Assembly (NCBI GenBank): GCA_027307335.1
Contig: DAHUXD010000044.1
Location: forward strand, 1 to 64,000
Length of the DNA stretch: 64,000 nucleotides
From: Acidobacteriota bacterium
GTDB lineage: Bacteria; Acidobacteriota; Thermoanaerobaculia; UBA5066; Gp7-AA6
Direction: 5' to 3'
Shown: piece after piece, positions 1,961 to 16,112 of the stretch
Numbering within the stretch: the stretch's first letter is position 1
How the letters are laid out: each line of letters begins with the position of its first letter
The notes under the pieces: generated by a model
What the model was told of the DNA's origin: nothing
Databases searched by the model: none
What the model saw: only the letters and a program-made list of their open reading frames with translations
Program-made: the position numbers and the translations under genes

Positions 1961-4375
1961 TCAGTCCTCCCGCAGCACCCGCAGCGGATCGATGCGTCCG
2001 GCGCGCACCGCCGGAACCACGCACGCTCCGAGCGCGACGAAACAGAGGACACCCACGACCGAGGCGAGCGTCGCCGGGTCGGCGGGCCCGACGCCGTAGA
2101 GCAGCGAGCCGAGCAGGCGCGCGAGGGCGAGGGCGCCGACGAGGCCGATCGCGACGCCGACGAGCGTCGTGCGCATGCCCTGCAGGACGACCATGCCGAG
2201 GACGGTCTCGGTCCGCGCGCCGAGCGCCATGCGGATACCGATCTCGCGCCGGCGGCGGCGCACCGAGTACGCGAGCACGCTCGCGATGCCCACGGCGGCG
2301 AGCACGAGCGCGAGCGCCGCGAAGCCGCCGAGCAGCTGGACTCCGAATCGCTGCTGAGACAGCGAGGCGGCGAGGAGGTCCTCGAGCGGGCCGCTCTCGA
2401 TCACGGGCTGCGCGGGATCGAGCGCGCGCACCGCGGCGGTCGCCGCCTTCAGCGTCGCCCCCGGCGTCTTCGTGCGGATCGGCAACTCCATGCCGGACCT
2501 CGGGATCTGCGCGAGCGGCAGGTACATGGCGGAGACGGGCTCCCGAACCTCGAGCCCCAGGAGCTTCACGTTGCCGACGATGCCGACGACCTCGCGCGTC
2601 TTCTCGGGAAAAAATGCCGTCGTCAGCCGCTTCCCGATCGGGTCCTCGCCCGGCCAGAAGCGGCGCGCCATCGCCTCGCTGATGACCACGACGCCCGGCG
2701 CGCTCGGGTCGTCGTGCGCGCCGAACACCCGGCCACGCCGGAGCGGGATGCGCATCGTCCGGAAGTAGTCTCCGGCGACGATCTCCGTGACGACGTTCGG
2801 CTGCTGCGAAACGGGCGGCGCCGGCCGCCCCTCGAACGCGACGGGCCAGTTCGAATTGCCATTCAAGGGGAGATTGCTGGTCGCCCCCACGGACTCGACG
2901 CCCGGGAGAGCCCGGAGGCGGTCGACGAGGGCGCCGAAGAACGCGGCCTTCTTTTCGTTCGTGTCGTATCGCTCCTTCGGCAGGAGCACGGCGATGCGGA
3001 CCACGCCGCGCGGATCGAACCCGGGATCGACGCCGTTGAGCAGCCAGAGGCTGCGGACGAGGAGACCGGCTCCCGTCAGCAGAACGAGCGCGAGCGCCAC
3101 CTCCGCGACCACCAGGACGCTGCGGGCGCCGCGTCCGGCCTCGGTGCCGCCGCGGCTTCCTCCCTGCTGAAGGGCGAGCGCCAGGTCCGCCCGCATGGCG
3201 CCCCAGGCCGGAGCGATGCCGGCGAGCACGCCCGTCAGCGCGGAGACCAGCGTCGTGAACGCGAGCACCGGCACGGACACGCGGATCTCGGCCGCGCGCG
3301 GCAGACGATCGGCCAGGAGCGCCACGAGCGGCGGCAGGCCGAAGCTCGCGAGCGCGAGGCCCAGCGCGCCGCCGGCGGCGGAGAGGAGCAGCGATTCGGC
3401 GACGAGCTGGCCGAGGAGGCGTCGCCGGCTGGCTCCGAGCGCCGCGCGCACCGCGATTTCGCGCCGCCGCGCCAGCGTCCGGGCGAGCAGCAGGTTGCCG
3501 ACGTTCGCGCACGCGATCAGGAGGACGAAGGCGACCGAACCGAGCAGGACCAGGAGGAGGGGCCGGACCTCGCCGACGAGGTCCTCCCGCAGCGGCACGA
3601 CCAGCGCGCCCCACCCCGCGTCGTCGTCGGGATACTGCTTGGCCAGCCGCTCGGAGATCACGTTCATCTCGCTCTGCGCCGCGGCCACGCTGACGCCGCG
3701 CTTCAGCCGTGCGACCGTGATGAAGTTGTGCTCGACCCGCATCGCCCGCTCCTTCGCGTCCATGACGAAGGGGACCCAGGCGCTGGCGAATTCCGGCAGG
3801 CGGTCGGCCGGACGCATGACGCCGACGACGCGGACCATCCGGTCGTTGACGCGAATCTCCCGGCCGACGACCCGAGGGTCCGAGCCGAACCGCGTCCGCC
3901 AGAGCGCGTCGCCGAGCACGATGGCCGGCTCCGCCTCGGGGCGGAAGTCGTCCGGCGTCAGCGTGCGGCCGAGCGCCGGAGAAGCGCCGAGCGCCGCGAA
4001 GAATTTCTCCGTCACCCGCGCGGCCGGAATCGACTGCGGCTCGCCGTCGCCCGCCCAGTTGAGGTTCGTGAAACCGATCAGCGCCATGTTCTCGAAAACG
4101 TGGTTCTGCGCCTCCCAGTCGAGATAGTTCGCGCTCGAAACGGCAAAGGTCTTGACCCCCGGAAAGCCCGACTGCGGCGGCGTGTGCCAGACGCGCACGA
4201 GGCGCGATGCCTCCGGGTACGGAAGCGGCTGGAGCAGGACGGCGTGCACGATGCTGAAGATCGCGGCGTTTGCCCCGATGCCGAGCGCGAAGACGGCGAG
4301 CGCCACGAGCGTGAAGCCCGGAGTGCGCCGCAGCATCCGAAGGCCGTGCTTGAGGTCCTGGCGGAGTCGTTCCAT
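1961..4375 (-). CDS. MacB/FtsX-type ABC permease (acidobacterial duplicated orphan permease)
   Basis: An 804-residue inner-membrane protein. The N-terminus (LRQDLKHGLRMLRRTPGF, then a hydrophobic helix and GIGANAAIFSIVHAVLLQPL) is the hallmark of the large stand-alone permeases common in Acidobacteria. A periplasmic MacB-like domain spans roughly residues 45-260. An FtsX core with three helices follows (RREIAVRAALGASRRRLLGQ motif near 310), then a second periplasmic domain and a second FtsX core with RRREIGIRMALGAR near 690. It ends in LRVLRED. No ATPase gene is adjacent, as usual for this family. Known roles of relatives are macrolide or lipoprotein export; the substrate here is unknown. It is divergent from the selenoprotein gene across 186 nt. 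Confidence 0.9.
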   Translation of the reverse strand: MERLRQDLKHGLRMLRRTPGFTLVALAVFALGIGANAAIFSIVHAVLLQPLPYPEASRLVRVWHTPPQSGFPGVKTFAVSSANYLDWEAQNHVFENMALIGFTNLNWAGDGEPQSIPAARVTEKFFAALGASPALGRTLTPDDFRPEAEPAIVLGDALWRTRFGSDPRVVGREIRVNDRMVRVVGVMRPADRLPEFASAWVPFVMDAKERAMRVEHNFITVARLKRGVSVAAAQSEMNVISERLAKQYPDDDAGWGALVVPLREDLVGEVRPLLLVLLGSVAFVLLIACANVGNLLLARTLARRREIAVRAALGASRRRLLGQLVAESLLLSAAGGALGLALASFGLPPLVALLADRLPRAAEIRVSVPVLAFTTLVSALTGVLAGIAPAWGAMRADLALALQQGGSRGGTEAGRGARSVLVVAEVALALVLLTGAGLLVRSLWLLNGVDPGFDPRGVVRIAVLLPKERYDTNEKKAAFFGALVDRLRALPGVESVGATSNLPLNGNSNWPVAFEGRPAPPVSQQPNVVTEIVAGDYFRTMRIPLRRGRVFGAHDDPSAPGVVVISEAMARRFWPGEDPIGKRLTTAFFPEKTREVVGIVGNVKLLGLEVREPVSAMYLPLAQIPRSGMELPIRTKTPGATLKAATAAVRALDPAQPVIESGPLEDLLAASLSQQRFGVQLLGGFAALALVLAAVGIASVLAYSVRRRRREIGIRMALGARTETVLGMVVLQGMRTTLVGVAIGLVGALALARLLGSLLYGVGPADPATLASVVGVLCFVALGACVVPAVRAGRIDPLRVLRED

Positions 4376-4543: not shown

Positions 4544-4561
4544 GCCCCCGGAGGAGGCGCC

Positions 4562-4924
4562 ATGAAACCGTCCGTTCGCACGCTCGCGGCGCTCGCCGTC
4601 GGCTTCGCGATTCTCGTCGTTCCGTCGCTCGCCGCGACGGGTCCCCTGCGCGTGACCTACTACTTCCTGCCCGGCTGACCCATCTGCGCGAAGATCAAGC
4701 CCGCCGTGAGCGGGCTCGAGCAGGAGTACAAGGGAAAGGTGAAGGGCGAGAACCTCGACGCGACCACCCCCGAGAACCGGAAGATCGTCAAGGAGCTCGG
4801 TTTCGACAACCACGGCCTCGTGATCCGCTCCGCGGACGGCAAGGTGCTCTGGAAGGAGCCCGACCACGAAGTGAAGGTAGAGGACGTGCGCAAGGAGCTC
4901 GACCGGCTGCTCGCGAAACAGTGA
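4562..4924 (+). CDS. secreted thioredoxin-fold selenoprotein with a U-P-I-C redox motif
   Basis: The frame opens at an ATG with a strong GGAGGAGG ribosome site. It encodes a Sec signal peptide (about residues 1-25, hydrophobic core LAALAVGFAILVV, cleavage near SLA/AT). It meets TGA at 4676-4678 (codon 39) and then continues in frame for 81 more codons to a TGA at 4922. The context is VTYYFLPG-U-PICAKIKPAV, a beta strand leading into a CxxC-like turn and helix, exactly where thioredoxin-fold proteins carry the catalytic dithiol. Reading TGA as selenocysteine gives a UxxC (U39, C42) oxidoreductase of 120 residues. The downstream part keeps a typical fold (GFDNHGLVIRSADGKVLW). A 7-bp hairpin follows at SECIS distance. 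The alternative is a nonsense mutation of TGC, or a sequencing error. No sel genes lie in the window. Probable role: periplasmic thiol-disulfide or peroxide chemistry (inference). Confidence 0.8.
4698..4716 (+). other. SECIS-like hairpin after the in-frame TGA
   Basis: A perfect 7-bp stem, AGCCCGC (4698-4704) with GCGGGCT (4710-4716), closes a 5-nt loop CGTGA. The loop begins 26 nt after the TGA codon. Bacterial SECIS elements lie within the coding region roughly 16-37 nt after UGA and have a G among the first two loop bases; both hold here (G4706, followed by U). Confidence 0.65.
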
Positions 4925-4940: not shown

Positions 4941-7313
4941 CTGATCGGGCGCAGCCTCGGGCACTACCGGATCACCGCCTCGATCGGCTCCGGCGGCATG
5001 GGAGAGGTCTACCGGGCCTCCGACACGAAGCTCCTGCGCGACGTGGCGCTCAAGGTGCTGCCACCGCAGATGGCGGCCGATCCCGAGCGTTTCGACCGGT
5101 TTCAGCGGGAGGCGCGGGCGCTCGCCGCCCTCGACCACCCCGGAATCGTGGGCGTGTTCTCGGTCGAAGAGGCGGACGGCGTCCACTTCCTGACCATGCA
5201 GCTGGTCGAGGGCGAGCCCCTCGATCTGCACATCGCCGAGGGCAATCTTTCCCTCGGGAGGATTCTCGACATCGCGCTCCCGCTGACGGAGGCGCTGGGC
5301 GCGGCGCACGAGAGGGGAATCGTCCACCGCGACCTGAAGCCCGCCAACGTCATGGTCGGCCGCGACGGGCGGGTGAAGGTGCTCGACTTCGGTCTGGCGA
5401 AGCTCGCCGCCCCCTCGGGAGAGGCCGCGGGATCGCAGATCCAGACCGAGGTGGGCATGCAGACGCGCGAGGGCGTCGTGATGGGCACGGTGCCGTACAT
5501 GTCGCCCGAGCAGCTCTCCGGAAAGGCGGCGGACGCGCGGACGGATGTCTTCTCGCTCGGCATCATCCTCTACGAGATGGCGAGCGGCCGCCGTCCGTTC
5601 CGGGGCGACTCCTCCGCGGAGTTGATCTCCTCGATCCTGCGCGACACGCCGCCGGACCTGACGAAGCTCCGGTCGGATCTGCCGCCCGATCTCTCCCGCA
5701 TCATCCGGCGCTGTCTCGAGAAGGATCCGGCGCAGCGCTACCCGACGGCGCGCGCGCTGCACGACGACCTGAGGACCCTGCGCACGCAACCGGCGCTGCC
5801 GGACGCGGCGCCGGCTCCGGCTTCCCCGCCGCGAACCGCGACCCGACGGACCGTCGCCCTCGCCGCCCTCGCGGCCGCCGTCGTCGTGGCCGCGCTCGTC
5901 CTCGCCGGGAGAGCGCGATCGAGTCGCGTCACGCCGAAGACGGGGACCGCCTCGTCCTCTCCGTCACTCGCCGTGCTGCCCTTCGTCAACCAGGGAGGCA
6001 GCGCCGACGACGAGTACTTCTCGGATGGCATGACCGACGAGGTCGCGAACGCGCTGACGAAGGTCCCGGGCCTGCGCGTCGCGGCGCGCAGCTCCGCCTA
6101 CAGCTTCAAGGGGAAGGCGGCGGACGCGCGCGAGATCGGAGAAAAGCTCACGGTCGGCACGGTCCTCGAGGGAACGGTGCGCCGCTCCGGATCGAAGATC
6201 CGCGTGACGGCGCAGCTCGTCAACGCCTCCGACGGCCTCGTCCTCTGGTCCGAGCAGTACGAGCGCGACGCGAAGGACGTATTCGCCGTTCAGGACGACA
6301 TCACGGGATCGATCGTCTCCGCCCTTCGGCTGAAGCTCGCCTCCGGCAACAAGGCGAGCCAGACCGAGAATGCCGAGGCCCACGACCTCTACCTGCGCGG
6401 CCGCTTCTTCATGTTCCAGCAGTCGGAGGAAGGCCTGCGAAAGGCGCTCGACTATTTCGACCAGGCCCTCGCGCAGGACCCCAAGTATGCGCCGGCCTAC
6501 GCCGGCACGGCGTTCGCCTGGGCGTGGCTCGCCGACTCGGTCCTGCCTCCCCGCGAGGCGTACCCGAAGGCGAAGGCCGCCGCGCAGAAGGCGCTCGAGC
6601 TCGACCCGACCAACGTCGAGGCGCGCGGCATGCTGGGCATCATCCTCTGGCTGTACGACTGGGACCGGGCGGGTTCCGAGAAGGAGTTCCGGCAGGCGCT
6701 CGAGTCCAACCCCAACTCGATGGACATCCACAATCTCCGCGCGATCTCGCTCTGCGAGATGCGCCAGTACGAGGCAGGCCTGGCCGAGGCCGACCGCGCC
6801 ATCGCGCTCGACCCGCTGAACGTGTGGCCGAGCTGGGTGCGCGAGTACTGCCTCTGCATCGGCCGCCGCTACGACGAGGTCCTCGCGCAGCACCGGAAGT
6901 CCGAGGAGCTCGACCCCCGCTTCTTCTACAGCGATTCGTGGTCGGGGGTCGCCTATCGCGAGAAGAAGATGTACGCCGAGTCGGTGGCGGAGTACGAGAA
7001 GGCGCGGAAGATCACGGGGATTCCCCTGCCGGGGCTCGCCGTGACCTACGCCCGCATGGGCAGGACCGCCGACGCGCGCACCGTTCTCCAGGAGCTTCTC
7101 GAGCTCAACCGGGGACGCTACATCCCTCCCGAGTTCTTCTCCGAGATCTACGCCGCCCTCGGAGAGAAGGACGAGGCCTTCGCCTGGCTCGACAAGTCCT
7201 ATGACGCGCGGTCGGCGTTTCTGCCCGCCCTTCTCTATTCACCGCTCTTCGACGATCTCCGCGCGGACCCGCGCTTTCCCGAGATGGTGAAGAAGAGGAA
7301 CCTCGACCGGTAG
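4941..7313 (+). CDS. Ser/Thr protein kinase with TolB-like and TPR extracytoplasmic domain
   Basis: A receptor-like Hanks kinase of about 790 residues. The kinase domain covers about residues 1-280: glycine loop [16 protein letters not shown] lysine, HRDLKPANVM catalytic loop, DFGLAKL and the MSPEQ activation segment. One transmembrane helix lies near 300-323. Then comes a TolB/FlgO-like domain (SLAVLPFVNQGG near 340, ending VQDDITGSIVSALRL) and TPR repeats to the end. The first ATG, at 4998, falls inside the glycine loop and would destroy it. The frame upstream has no ATG, GTG or TTG before stops at 4872 and 4878. I therefore place the start at CTG 4941, just after the selenoprotein stop; this is unusual and uncertain. 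The likely role is a membrane kinase sensing through protein interactions. Confidence 0.85.
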   Translation: MIGRSLGHYRITASIGSGGMGEVYRASDTKLLRDVALKVLPPQMAADPERFDRFQREARALAALDHPGIVGVFSVEEADGVHFLTMQLVEGEPLDLHIAEGNLSLGRILDIALPLTEALGAAHERGIVHRDLKPANVMVGRDGRVKVLDFGLAKLAAPSGEAAGSQIQTEVGMQTREGVVMGTVPYMSPEQLSGKAADARTDVFSLGIILYEMASGRRPFRGDSSAELISSILRDTPPDLTKLRSDLPPDLSRIIRRCLEKDPAQRYPTARALHDDLRTLRTQPALPDAAPAPASPPRTATRRTVALAALAAAVVVAALVLAGRARSSRVTPKTGTASSSPSLAVLPFVNQGGSADDEYFSDGMTDEVANALTKVPGLRVAARSSAYSFKGKAADAREIGEKLTVGTVLEGTVRRSGSKIRVTAQLVNASDGLVLWSEQYERDAKDVFAVQDDITGSIVSALRLKLASGNKASQTENAEAHDLYLRGRFFMFQQSEEGLRKALDYFDQALAQDPKYAPAYAGTAFAWAWLADSVLPPREAYPKAKAAAQKALELDPTNVEARGMLGIILWLYDWDRAGSEKEFRQALESNPNSMDIHNLRAISLCEMRQYEAGLAEADRAIALDPLNVWPSWVREYCLCIGRRYDEVLAQHRKSEELDPRFFYSDSWSGVAYREKKMYAESVAEYEKARKITGIPLPGLAVTYARMGRTADARTVLQELLELNRGRYIPPEFFSEIYAALGEKDEAFAWLDKSYDARSAFLPALLYSPLFDDLRADPRFPEMVKKRNLDR

Positions 7314-11123: not shown

Positions 11124-14100
11124 ATGTCGCTGTCCACCGGGTCCCGCCTCGGCGCCTACGAGATCCTGGGCCCGCTCGGCGCCGGGGGAATGGGCGAGGT
11201 CTATCGCGCGCGGGACCCGAAGCTCGGTCGCGACATAGCGATCAAGGTGCTCCCCGAAGACGTCGCGCGCGACCCGGACCGCCTGGCGCGTTTCGAGCGC
11301 GAGGCGCGCTCGCTCGCGGCCTTGAATCATCCCGGCATCGTCACGATCTTCGCGGTCGAGGAGTCGGAGGGTGCGCGGTTTCTCGCCATGGAGCTGGTCG
11401 AGGGTGACAGTCTCGACACGCTCGTTCCTCCCGAGGGACTGCCCCTGGCTCGCTTCCTCGAGCTCGCGGTCCCGCTGGCGGAGGCGCTGTCGGCGGCGCA
11501 CGAGCGCGGCATCGTGCACAGAGATCTCAAGCCCGGGAACGTCATGGTGACGCGCGAGGGACGAGTCAAGGTGCTCGACTTCGGCCTCGCCCGGGTGGAG
11601 GCGGCGGACTCGAACGCGGACCTCACGAGTACGCCGACCGAGAGCCGCGTCACGAATCTGACGAGCGAAGGACAGGTCTTCGGCACGGTCGCCTACATGT
11701 CGCCGGAGCAGGCGCGTGGCGCGAGGGTCGATGCGCGATCGGACGTCTTCTCGCTCGGCATCGTGATGTACCAGATGCTCACCGGCGGACGTCCGTTCCA
11801 CGGCGCGACCGCCGTCGACCTGATCTCGTCGATCCTGCGCGACCGGCCCGCGTCGGTCACGGACCTTCGCGCCGATCTCCCGCCGGATCTGGCGCGGGTC
11901 ATCCGCCGCTGCCTCGAGAAGGAGCCGCGCGACCGGTACCAGACCTCGCGCGACGTCTACAACGAGCTCCGGGAGCTGCGCGCGGAGGTTGCCATCCCGC
12001 CGTCGCCGGCCCCGTCGCGGCCCGAGCCCGTCTCGCCCGCGCGCCCCGATTCGGGCTCCCCGAAGACCCAGGCCTTCTGGATCGCCGTCCTCCCCTTCAC
12101 GCATTCGGGAGGCGTTCCCGAGCTCGTGTCCTTCGCGGAAGGACTCGCGGAGGACATCCACGCCGGCCTCGCGAAGTTTCCGTATCTCTCCGTCATCTCC
12201 CGCAACTCGACCCTTCGCTTCAGGACGCAGACTTCCGACGTGCGGGCGGTGGGGCAGCAACTGGGTGCGCGTTACGTCCTGGAGGGTGGCATCCGCAAGA
12301 GCGGATCCGTCCTCCGCGTCAACGTCCAGCTCGTCGACGCCCAAACCGGCGCCCATCTCTGGGCGGAGACCTACAACCGGGACCTTCAGGGCTCGAACGT
12401 GCTCGCCGTGCAGGACGACGTGACGGACCGCGTCGTGGCGACCGTCGCGGACACCTCCGGCGCGCTCGTACGGTCCATGGCCGCGAGCGTCGAGGAGAAG
12501 CCGGATGCCGAGCTGACCGCCACCGACGTCGTGCTGAGACACTGGCGGTATCAGCACCGGGGCACTCCGGCCGAGCACGCGAGAGTCCGGGACGGCCTCG
12601 AGAAGTTCGTCGAGCGCGAGCCGGGGCATGCGGACGTCTGGGCCTGCCTCGCCCGCTTGTACGTCCACGAGTTCGCCCTGGGGTTCAACCGGCGGCCGGA
12701 ACCGCTCGAGCGGGCGCTCCGCGCGGCCCAGCGCGCCGTGGACCTCGACCCCACCTGCCAGCACGCACGCGCCGGCATCGCGCAAATCCATTTCTTCCGG
12801 CGCGAGGTCCCCGCCTTCCGCGCCGCGGCGGAGCAGGCCATCGCCCTGAACCCGCGCGACACCGACACGCTCGGCGTCATGGGCAACATGCTCACGGACT
12901 CCGGAGACTTCGAGCGGGGTCCGAATCTCGTGCGCCGGGCGATGGAGCTCAATCCCCATTTCCCCGATTGGTTCCGCTTCGCCCTGACGGTGGAGCATTT
13001 TCAGAAGGGCGATTACGCGAAGGCTCTCGACGATCTCGCGCGCGTGAACATGCCCGGGTTCTTCTGGAAGGAGCTCTGGGTGGCGGCCTGCGGCGGGCTC
13101 GCGGGCCGCGACGCGGAGGCCGCCGCCGCCGTCGAGGAACTACGTCGGATCGCTCCGGACATCGAACGGCATGCGCGTGAATTCGCGGATGCCTGGCTCT
13201 ATGCGAGCGGGCTCACGGACCGGTTCCTGGAAGGACTCCGCAAGGCCGGCCTGGAGATTCCCGCCGAGAGCGCGCCAGGCACCCTCGCTGGCGAGCGGCC
13301 GCGTTCCCTGCCACCGGTCTCGGGTTCCGTTGCGGCGGATGAGGCCTTCTGGGTCGCGGTGCTGCCCTTCCGGCACACGGGAGCCGACGCACTTGCGGCC
13401 CTCGCGGACGGCCTGACCGAGGACATCGTGACGGGCCTCTCGCGCTTCTCCTATCTCAAAGTCATCGCCCGCAGCTCGACCGCGCGGTACGCCAGCGAGG
13501 CGGTGGACGTGCGCTCCTCCGGAAGGGAGCTGGGCGCTCGGTACGTCATGGAAGGAAGTTTGCGGCAAGCGGGGTCGAAACTGCGCCTCGCGGTTCAGCT
13601 CGTCGATGCGACCTCGGGGGCTCACCTCTGGGCCGAAAGCTACGAGCGCGCGTTCGATCCGAGCGCCCTGTTCGAGGCCCAGGACGATCTGGTTCCACGA
13701 ATCGTGTCGACCGTCGCCGACATGGCCGGCGTTCTCCCGCGCAGCATGAGCGAGAGCCTGCGCAGCCGTCCACCCGAGCAGCTGAGTCCCTACGAGGCGG
13801 TCCTGCGCAGCTTCGGCTACTTCGAGCGCTACAACCCGGAGGAGCTGTCGTCCGCGAGATCCGGACTCGAGGCCGCGGTGCGGAAGGCCCCGACCTATGC
13901 CGATGCCTGGGCCATGCTGTCGTATCTCGGCGCCCAGGATTACGTGCACGGCTACGATCTTCAGGCGGGCGCGCTGGAAGCGGCGGCGTCCGCCGCGCGG
14001 CGGGCCGTCGAGCTGGGTCCGTCGAATCACCTCGCCTGGTTCAGCCTGGCCCAATCGCTGTCCTATCAGAAGGACTTCGATTCATTCCGTCACGCGGCGG

Positions 14101-16112
14101 AACGCGCCGTCGAGCTCAACCCGATGAACGGCAGCTCGGTGGCTCTCCTGGGCGAATTGCTGCTCTACGCCGGGAGCCGCGATCGCGGCATGGAGCTGGC
14201 CGAACGAGCCAAACGACTGAATCCGATTCACGCGGGCGGCTACTACTACGCCGACTTCTACGACGCCTTTTCCCGGGGCAACTATCGCGGCGCGCTCGAC
14301 TTCGCCCTGAAGAGCAAACTGCGCGGCAACCCGCTCGCGCCGATGTTCATCGCCGCCGCCGCTGGTCAGCTGGGAGACACGGATCAGGGGTCGGCGGCGG
14401 TGCGCGATCTACTGAAGTTCCGCCCCGAGCTACCGGCTCTGATGCGCAAGCAGGTCGGCAAGATCTGGAACCCCGAGTACGGTGAGCGCTTCATCGACGG
14501 CTTGCGCAAGGCGGGTTTGGACATACCTGCAGCGCCGGCAACGATCGACCAAACCCCGTCCATTCCGGCGCCCGGAGCCTCCGACGCGATGCCGGCCCCT
14601 CCGAATCGGAGGTGGTGGATCGCCGCGGCGGCCGCCGTCGTGCTCGCGGCCGCCGCGCTCTGGTTCACGCGCTCGCGCCCCGGATCGTCCAGCGCCCCAC
14701 AGCCGGCCGTCGCGGCCGCCCCTCCGGCCATCCGCTCGCTTGCCGTCCTTCCGCTCGACAACTATTCAGGCGATGCGAGCCAGGACTACTTCGCCGAGGG
14801 AATGACCGACGAGCTGACGTCGGACCTCGCCAACATCAGCGGCCTTCGCGTGATCTCGCGTGGCTCCGTGATGCAGTTCAAGGGCAAGGACCGGCCGCCG
14901 ACTCCCGAGATCGCGAAGAAGCTCGACGTCGACGCCGTCGTCGAGGGCTCCGTGATCCGGTCGGGCGACAAGGTCCGGATCACCGCCCAGCTCATCGACG
15001 CGCGCTCGGACAGGCACCTGTGGGCGAAGAGCTTCGAGCGCCGCTCGAAGGACGTGCTCGCGCTGCAGGACGAGCTCGCCTCGGCGATCGCGAACGAGAT
15101 CCACGTCGAGCTGACGCCCGCCGAGGAATCGCGGCTCTCGAAGGGACGCCGCGTGAACCCCGAGGCGTACGACGCGTACCTGAAGGGCCGCTATTTCTTC
15201 AACCGTCCGACCGACGAGAACCTGAGCAAGGCGATCGAGAAGTTCGAGGAGGCGACGCGGCTGGACCCGAACTTCGCGCCCGCGTTTTCGGGTCTCTCCG
15301 ATGCCTACGCCTGGGCCGGCTTCAACGAGGGCATCATGACCGCCTCGGAGTCGCGACCGAAAGCCCGGGAAGCGGCGGAGAAGGCGATCGCGCTCGACCC
15401 CAACTCCGCCGAGGCGCACACGTCCCTCGCGAATTACAAGCTCTGGTACGAATACGACTGGGCGGGCAGCGAGGCCGAGTTCCGACGGGCCATCGCCCTG
15501 AATCCGAACTACGCCTACGCCCACGACCAGCTCGGAGTCGGGCTCGGGTTCGTCGGACGTTTCGACGATTCGATGGCCGAGAGCCGGCGAGCGGCCGCGC
15601 TGGATCCGCTGTCACCCCAGATTCCGATCGACGCGTCTTCGGCCGCCGCCTTCAAGGGCGACTACGAGCTGGGCCGGGAGCTGGCCCGACGGGGCGCCGA
15701 GCTCGAGCCGGGGTACTTCTTCGCCGCATTCTCGGATGGGGTGCTCGAGATCCAGGCGGGACGTGTTCCCGAGGCCATCGCGAGTCTCGAGAAGGCCAAG
15801 GCCATGGGTGGCCCGACGTTCGTGTCCGCCTACCTCGCTTACGCCTACGGGGCTTCCGGCGATCGCTCACGCGCCGCGGCGGAGCTCGAGGATCTCAAGA
15901 AGCGATCACTGCGCGGAGTCGTCAGCCCATACAACATGGCGCTGGTGTGCATCGGCCTCGGCGAGCGCCAGCGCGCGCTGGACTATCTGGAGAAGGCCTA
16001 CGCGACCGATTCGGAGTGGCTGGGTTACCTGAACCTCGACAGGACCTTCGATTCCCTCCGCTCCGAGCCGCGCTTCCAGGCGCTGCTGAAGAAGCTGAAC
16101 TTCCCGGGCTGA
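11124..16112 (+). CDS. giant Ser/Thr kinase with three tandem TolB-like/TPR modules
   Basis: 1662 residues. The kinase domain is residues 1-280 ([47 protein letters not shown]). Three successive copies of a TolB/FlgO-like plus TPR unit follow. Module 1 starts near 315 ([12 protein letters not shown]) and ends near 712 with [12 protein letters not shown]. Module 2 starts near 740 ([14 protein letters not shown]) and ends near 1135 with [11 protein letters not shown]. Module 3 starts near 1203 ([18 protein letters not shown]) and runs to the C-terminus. The only transmembrane helix (about 1162-1182, [18 protein letters not shown]) lies before module 3. By the usual topology, the kinase and two modules are cytoplasmic and the third faces the periplasm. 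Modules 1 and 2 are closest to each other and look like a duplication. Function beyond phosphorylation and protein-protein contact is unknown. Confidence 0.88.

Follow-up and report, generated by a model that had tools for sequence, protein, structure and literature searches.

An apparently undescribed family of predicted exported, thioredoxin-like selenoproteins in Acidobacteriota

The window, i.e. the entire stretch of 64,000 nucleotides that was analysed, very probably contains a genuine selenoprotein gene at positions 4562-4924, in which the TGA at codon 39 is read as selenocysteine (Sec). Based on sequence comparison, the gene apparently represents an undescribed family of thioredoxin-like selenoproteins, whose members are predicted to be exported, seem to occur in the Sec form only and lack the cis-proline of thioredoxins. 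A role of the product as a selenol/thiol reductase outside the cytoplasm is considered likely. The relevant features are located as follows.

1961..4375, minus strand: upstream, divergent MacB/FtsX-type permease-like gene (named by eye; outside any conserved unit)
4550..4557, plus strand: Shine-Dalgarno sequence GGAGGAGG, 4 nt before the ATG
4562..4924, plus strand: probable selenoprotein gene of 120 residues, from ATG to TGA stop (frame translation and homologue alignment)
4562..4636, plus strand: predicted export signal peptide MKPSVRTLAALAVGFAILVVPSLAA (sequence inspection by eye; N-termini of relatives)
4676..4678, plus strand: in-frame TGA, very probably read as Sec39 (aligned TGA in 16/16 genomes)
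4685..4687, plus strand: putative resolving Cys42 of UxxC (invariant in the alignment)
4699..4715, plus strand: bacterial SECIS-type hairpin (covariation, uniform codon choice, published bSECIS model)
4811..4816, plus strand: invariant His84-Gly85 in place of the Ile-cisPro of thioredoxins (invariant columns; profile alignment with 6bkv)
4998..7313, plus strand: downstream Ser/Thr protein kinase-like gene (named by eye; outside any conserved unit)

The coding frame (4562-4921) comprises 120 codons and is followed by the terminator TGA at 4922-4924. With TGA translated as U, it yields a single open frame, MKPSVRTLAALAVGFAILVVPSLAATGPLRVTYYFLPG-U-PICAKIKPAVSG...LLAKQ, in which codon 39 (4676-4678) is the sole internal in-frame TGA. 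The retranslation thus agrees with an earlier note on this DNA, which had described one frame interrupted by this TGA and a strong ribosome site in front of it; the latter corresponds to the Shine-Dalgarno sequence listed above. A start codon preceded by such a sequence and located upstream of the TGA was found for 15 of the 15 genes examined (the window gene and 14 relatives). The standard list of open reading frames contains just the last 72 codons (4706-4924, from a GTG), as had been anticipated in the note, according to which gene finding would miss or shorten the gene. The idea that GTG 4706 starts a gene of its own was rejected, since the region upstream of the TGA is conserved as well and contains the first strand of the fold.

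The translation with Cys in place of Sec served as query in a six-frame search that read through stops and covered 396 genomes from the phylum of the window. This search matched 12 other genomes with E-values from 1.7e-40 to 4e-15. Each homologue has exactly one in-frame TGA, which upon retranslation aligns with U39 and is followed by two residues and a Cys, indicating that the TGA at codon 39 is not a product of chance. Two extra carriers with the same TGA (L048/G487 and L054/G486) were obtained from a contig scan over about 85,000 species. When 149 genomes from the class of the window were searched, both turned up again along with one new carrier, G398; in this set, the family to which the window belongs is represented by three genomes, and each of them carries the gene. 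Altogether, the carriers amount to 16 distinct genomes (the window and 15 other Acidobacteriota) from at least three classes, some genomes in the sample being close relatives, and codon 39 is TGA in 16 of 16. The TGA had been proposed to occupy the position of the first Cys of a CxxC motif, and its alignment together with the retention of Cys42 in all 16 genomes is in line with this proposal. Neither TGC nor TGG was found at codon 39 in any of these genomes, and none of the homologues ends at codon 38.

The motif variants observed are UPIC, UPVC, UMVC, UMIC, UAVC, USIC and UQFC, with Cys at position +3 throughout. The general conserved motif is [LIM]PG-U-xx-C, of which UPIC is merely one form. 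Residues that are invariant in the alignment include Y33, P37, G38, Sec39, C42, D66, G80, F81, H84, G85, H102 and R110. Between the window and L048, 14, 11 and 28 differences were counted at first, second and third codon positions, respectively, over 79 codons, which indicates that the frame behind the TGA is subject to selection on the protein. A tree of the family has poor resolution. A viral origin was rejected, since no relative was detected in viral contigs and no family in PHROGs; plasmids gave no match either.

A bacterial SECIS-type hairpin follows the TGA. Its 6-bp stem is formed by positions 4699-4704 and 4710-4715, so that it spans 20-36 nt after the TGA. The loop CGUGA (4705-4709) has G at position 2, followed by U, and the distance from UGA to the loop is 26 nt. 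The published bSECIS model (PMC13188914) specifies a loop of 3-9 nt, a stem of 4-16 bp, a UGA-to-loop distance of 16-37 nt and a G as the first or second nucleotide of the loop, the next one often being G or U; the hairpin is consistent with the model in each of these respects. Covariation was analysed with 17 sequences (16 members and the outgroup G367) and 500 shuffles. Pairing was found in 93.1% of the cells, and four of the six pairs show double changes. The number of double-changed cells (7 vs. 1.9 expected) and the covariation score (0.300 vs. 0.169 in shuffles) were each reached by 0/500 shuffles, and not more than 46% of the cells paired when the partner was slid by 1-3 columns. The double changes stem from few divergent sequences (G279, G319, G398 and G367), and the signal was similar, but weaker, without the outgroup and G398. 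In comparisons of identical residues, the same codon was used in a fraction of 0.89 in the hairpin codons vs. 0.53 elsewhere, and the five-codon windows with the most uniform codon choice centre on the hairpin. Taken together, codon uniformity and covariation point to an RNA constraint beyond that of the protein. In single-sequence folding, the region exceeds shuffles in stability by a modest margin only (z = -1.67), and an Rfam search with the hairpin gave no match.

The genome has a size of 4.37 Mb, is 96.5% complete and is available as a draft in 65 contigs. Genes for the Sec machinery were identified with scores of 345.7 bits for selB (cut-off 242), 458 for selA (268) and 373 for selD (125), along with a tRNA-Sec of 66.5 bits with the anticodon TCA (selC); the complete set is hence present. 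Three formate dehydrogenase alpha-like genes with an in-frame TGA at the UHxP motif (G000:C33:111455-114523, C22:36302-39334 and C44:6592-7035) are probable Sec-FdhA paralogues and, as such, a further sign of Sec use in this genome. Within the phylum sample, selA was found in 13 of the 13 carriers. Sec use looks widespread in Acidobacteriota, given that selA exceeds the cut-off in 250 of the 396 genomes of the phylum; the selenoprotein papers that were retrieved hardly mention the phylum.

The N-terminus of the window protein is hydrophobic (by eye), and a lipobox-like Cys (e.g. LPLAGC, LSVLGC or LVGC) was noted in roughly half of the relatives, the others having putative signal peptides. The protein had been called secreted in the earlier note, which holds as a sequence prediction. 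An AlphaFold model based on 13 sequences reached a mean pLDDT of 87.8, with values of 94-98 over residues 31-120 and about 50 for residues 1-20. The order of secondary structure elements in the model is E-H-E-H-E-E-H. Comparison of the model by Foldseek and VIA-align identified thioredoxins with Z values of 11-13.7 and a best rmsd of 1.7 over 87 residues, in keeping with the conserved thioredoxin-like body that had been postulated behind the TGA. The product is therefore predicted to consist of a small thioredoxin-like domain behind a signal peptide.

In thioredoxins, substrate binding is normally shaped by the cis-proline, which also prevents metals from reaching the thiols of the active site. 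In a profile alignment, H84-G85 of the window protein aligns with the Ile-cisPro pair of the Helicobacter pylori thioredoxin (6bkv). As His-Gly has taken the place of the cis-proline, the surface offered to substrates may well differ from that of an ordinary thioredoxin.

With the exception of a cluster formed by three related genomes, no gene neighbourhood is conserved across the carriers, hence no partner gene backs a particular function. Apart from the kinase-like gene directly downstream, the window contains a second large Ser/Thr protein kinase-like gene (11124-16112). Several unrelated genomes have similar kinases close to their selenoprotein gene, the probable reason being that Ser/Thr kinases are abundant in these genomes.

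With respect to known families, all scores with Pfam and NCBIfam models remain below the respective cut-offs. The window protein scores 17.2 bits with PF00085, which is below the cut-off of 23.5 bits. When 13 members were compared with NCBIfam release 20.0 as a whole library, none of SaoT, HUIPC, GOS_C, VPGUxxT, UXX-star and TsoX exceeded the cut-off; weak matches to TsoX, UXX-star 3 and HUGP/GUXX-star occurred once each (E ≥ 0.09). An inventory from 2026 lists 119 prokaryotic selenoprotein families, several of which are UxxC thioredoxin-like (PMC13188914), but it holds no family with the [LIM]PGUxxC motif and no obvious equivalent. In the openly searchable literature on selenoproteins in Acidobacteriota, we found no paper describing a [LIM]PGUxxC family. 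The description of the protein as an undescribed one thus stands with regard to Pfam, NCBIfam and this inventory.

The new family shares the thioredoxin fold, Sec at the first active-site position and Cys at +3 with the Sec-containing thioredoxins (UxxC, PF00085), but differs from them in its predicted export, the [LIM]PGUxxC motif, His-Gly instead of Ile-cisPro and a score below the cut-off. The VPGUxxT family (NF041383, OS_HP5) is likewise thioredoxin-like and has Pro-Gly directly before Sec (motif from PMC13188914); going by its name, however, it has Thr instead of Cys at +3, and 0/13 members match it. HUIPC (NF047660), SaoT (NF040730) and GOS_C (NF045500) are also UxxC selenoproteins, the first two being named thioredoxin-like (PMC13188914), but none of the 13 members matched them at E ≤ 1. 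A further frame in Acidobacteriota, used as outgroup above (L083; G367:C259:420-704), encodes an exported thioredoxin-like protein with an in-frame TGA and a U-L-G-C motif. It resembles the new family in its signal-like N-terminus, the Cys at +3 and a hairpin (GCCCAT-CGTGC-ATGGGC) at equal distance, but has retained Thr-Pro in the place of the cis-proline and reaches only 33.8 bits against the new family. Judging from these differences, it probably belongs to another, separate subfamily of Sec thioredoxins in Acidobacteriota.

Cysteine forms were searched for at two levels. In the 396 genomes of the phylum, no Cys version was found by translated and family-profile searches. The last family member in the profile search has an E-value of 1.5e-38 and the next proteins follow at about 1e-7, with TGA in all family members. 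The proteins at E ≥ 1e-7 have the look of ordinary thioredoxins, or of thioredoxin domains at a C-terminus, with Cys-x-x-Cys, and the His-Gly motif is present in the aligned part of none of them. Among them is the G367 frame, which has a TGA of its own but is of a different type. The contig scan covered 84,980 species and relied on two peptide patterns, one having Cys in place of Sec and the other lying downstream; in this motif-based scan no Cys version was detected and TGA members alone were confirmed. Cys orthologues thus appear to be absent as far as the searches extend, i.e. by profile within the phylum and by peptide patterns in other phyla.

Concerning the proposed reductase role, the product would be exported, either free or as a lipoprotein. 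Sec39 is predicted to take an exposed N-terminal position on the active-site helix, with the Cys three residues further on. Outside the cytoplasm, the selenolate of Sec39 may attack an oxidised substrate (a disulfide, sulfenic acid or peroxide), upon which Cys42 would resolve the intermediate as a selenosulfide. Electrons could be returned by a DsbD/CcdA-type membrane protein; a DsbD_TM homologue is encoded in the genome.

Alternative readings of the TGA were also considered. The assembly is a draft in 65 contigs, and decaying genes are most often recognised by a single in-frame stop, so that the gene might be a former CPIC thioredoxin with a truncated product, in which TGC was misread or mutated to TGA. 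This explanation was rejected as practically negligible, as codon 39 is TGA in 16 genomes, the searches revealed no copy with Cys and protein-level selection continues behind the TGA. It is also extremely improbable that the TGA specifies another amino acid (e.g. Trp or Gly) or is subject to leaky read-through, although the inserted residue is not readable from the sequence alone. Codon 39 is the only one affected and falls on the first Cys of CxxC, the SECIS-type hairpin then follows, and the genome harbours the full Sec machinery together with the Sec-FdhA genes. Moreover, TGA terminates the gene here and in most relatives. A change of the genetic code was rejected for this reason, TGA being the normal terminator of the same gene.

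If the gene is accepted as one for a selenoprotein, two other roles compete with that of a reductase. A Sec form of the ordinary thioredoxin TrxA that was moved to the periplasm would account for the thioredoxin fold, the UxxC motif and the fact that the best weak matches are thioredoxins. It is nevertheless very unlikely, as the protein remains below the Pfam gathering score and reaches 21.6 bits with the NCBIfam TrxA model (cut-off 140 bits), has neither a WCGPC-like motif nor the cis-proline, and belongs to a tight group that is separated from thioredoxins by a wide gap in scores. The absence of the cis-proline makes a role linked to metals a serious alternative: Sec39, Cys42 and His84 could bind a metal, and the protein might mainly act as a metal or Fe-S binder or in metal detoxification. 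This role would fit the invariant His-Gly in place of Ile-cisPro and the fact that several known bacterial selenoprotein families handle metals (PMC13188914). In addition, mutation of cis-Pro75 in human TRX1 is sufficient for uptake of an Fe-S cluster, as cited in PMC8161271. We regard it as rather unlikely, given that no conserved partner gene accompanies the selenoprotein gene and that UxxC at the start of a helix is the classical redox arrangement.

A broader proposal is put forward tentatively and has a low probability. The family may be Sec-only without Cys orthologues anywhere, and the replacement of the cis-proline by an invariant His-Gly might allow a chemistry of Sec39, Cys42 and His84 in which Cys cannot replace Sec, e.g. 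metal or Fe-S binding or, outside the cytoplasm, the reduction of over-oxidised or metal(loid) substrates. According to a statement from 2025, all known selenoproteins seem to possess Cys homologues (PMC12013277); if the proposal is true, the family would be an exception to it.

The gene is missed or truncated by standard gene finding, and a method based on Cys/Sec pairs would probably miss it as well, since no close Cys form was found. For annotators, the family provides a profile, the [LIM]PGUxxC motif and a SECIS element for gene calling. The exchange of the cis-proline for His-Gly is a defined and testable departure from thioredoxin, and a Sec-only family would be a natural test of what selenium is able to do beyond sulfur. 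For the Acidobacteriota, a large and mostly uncultured phylum, the family indicates selenium chemistry in exported proteins.
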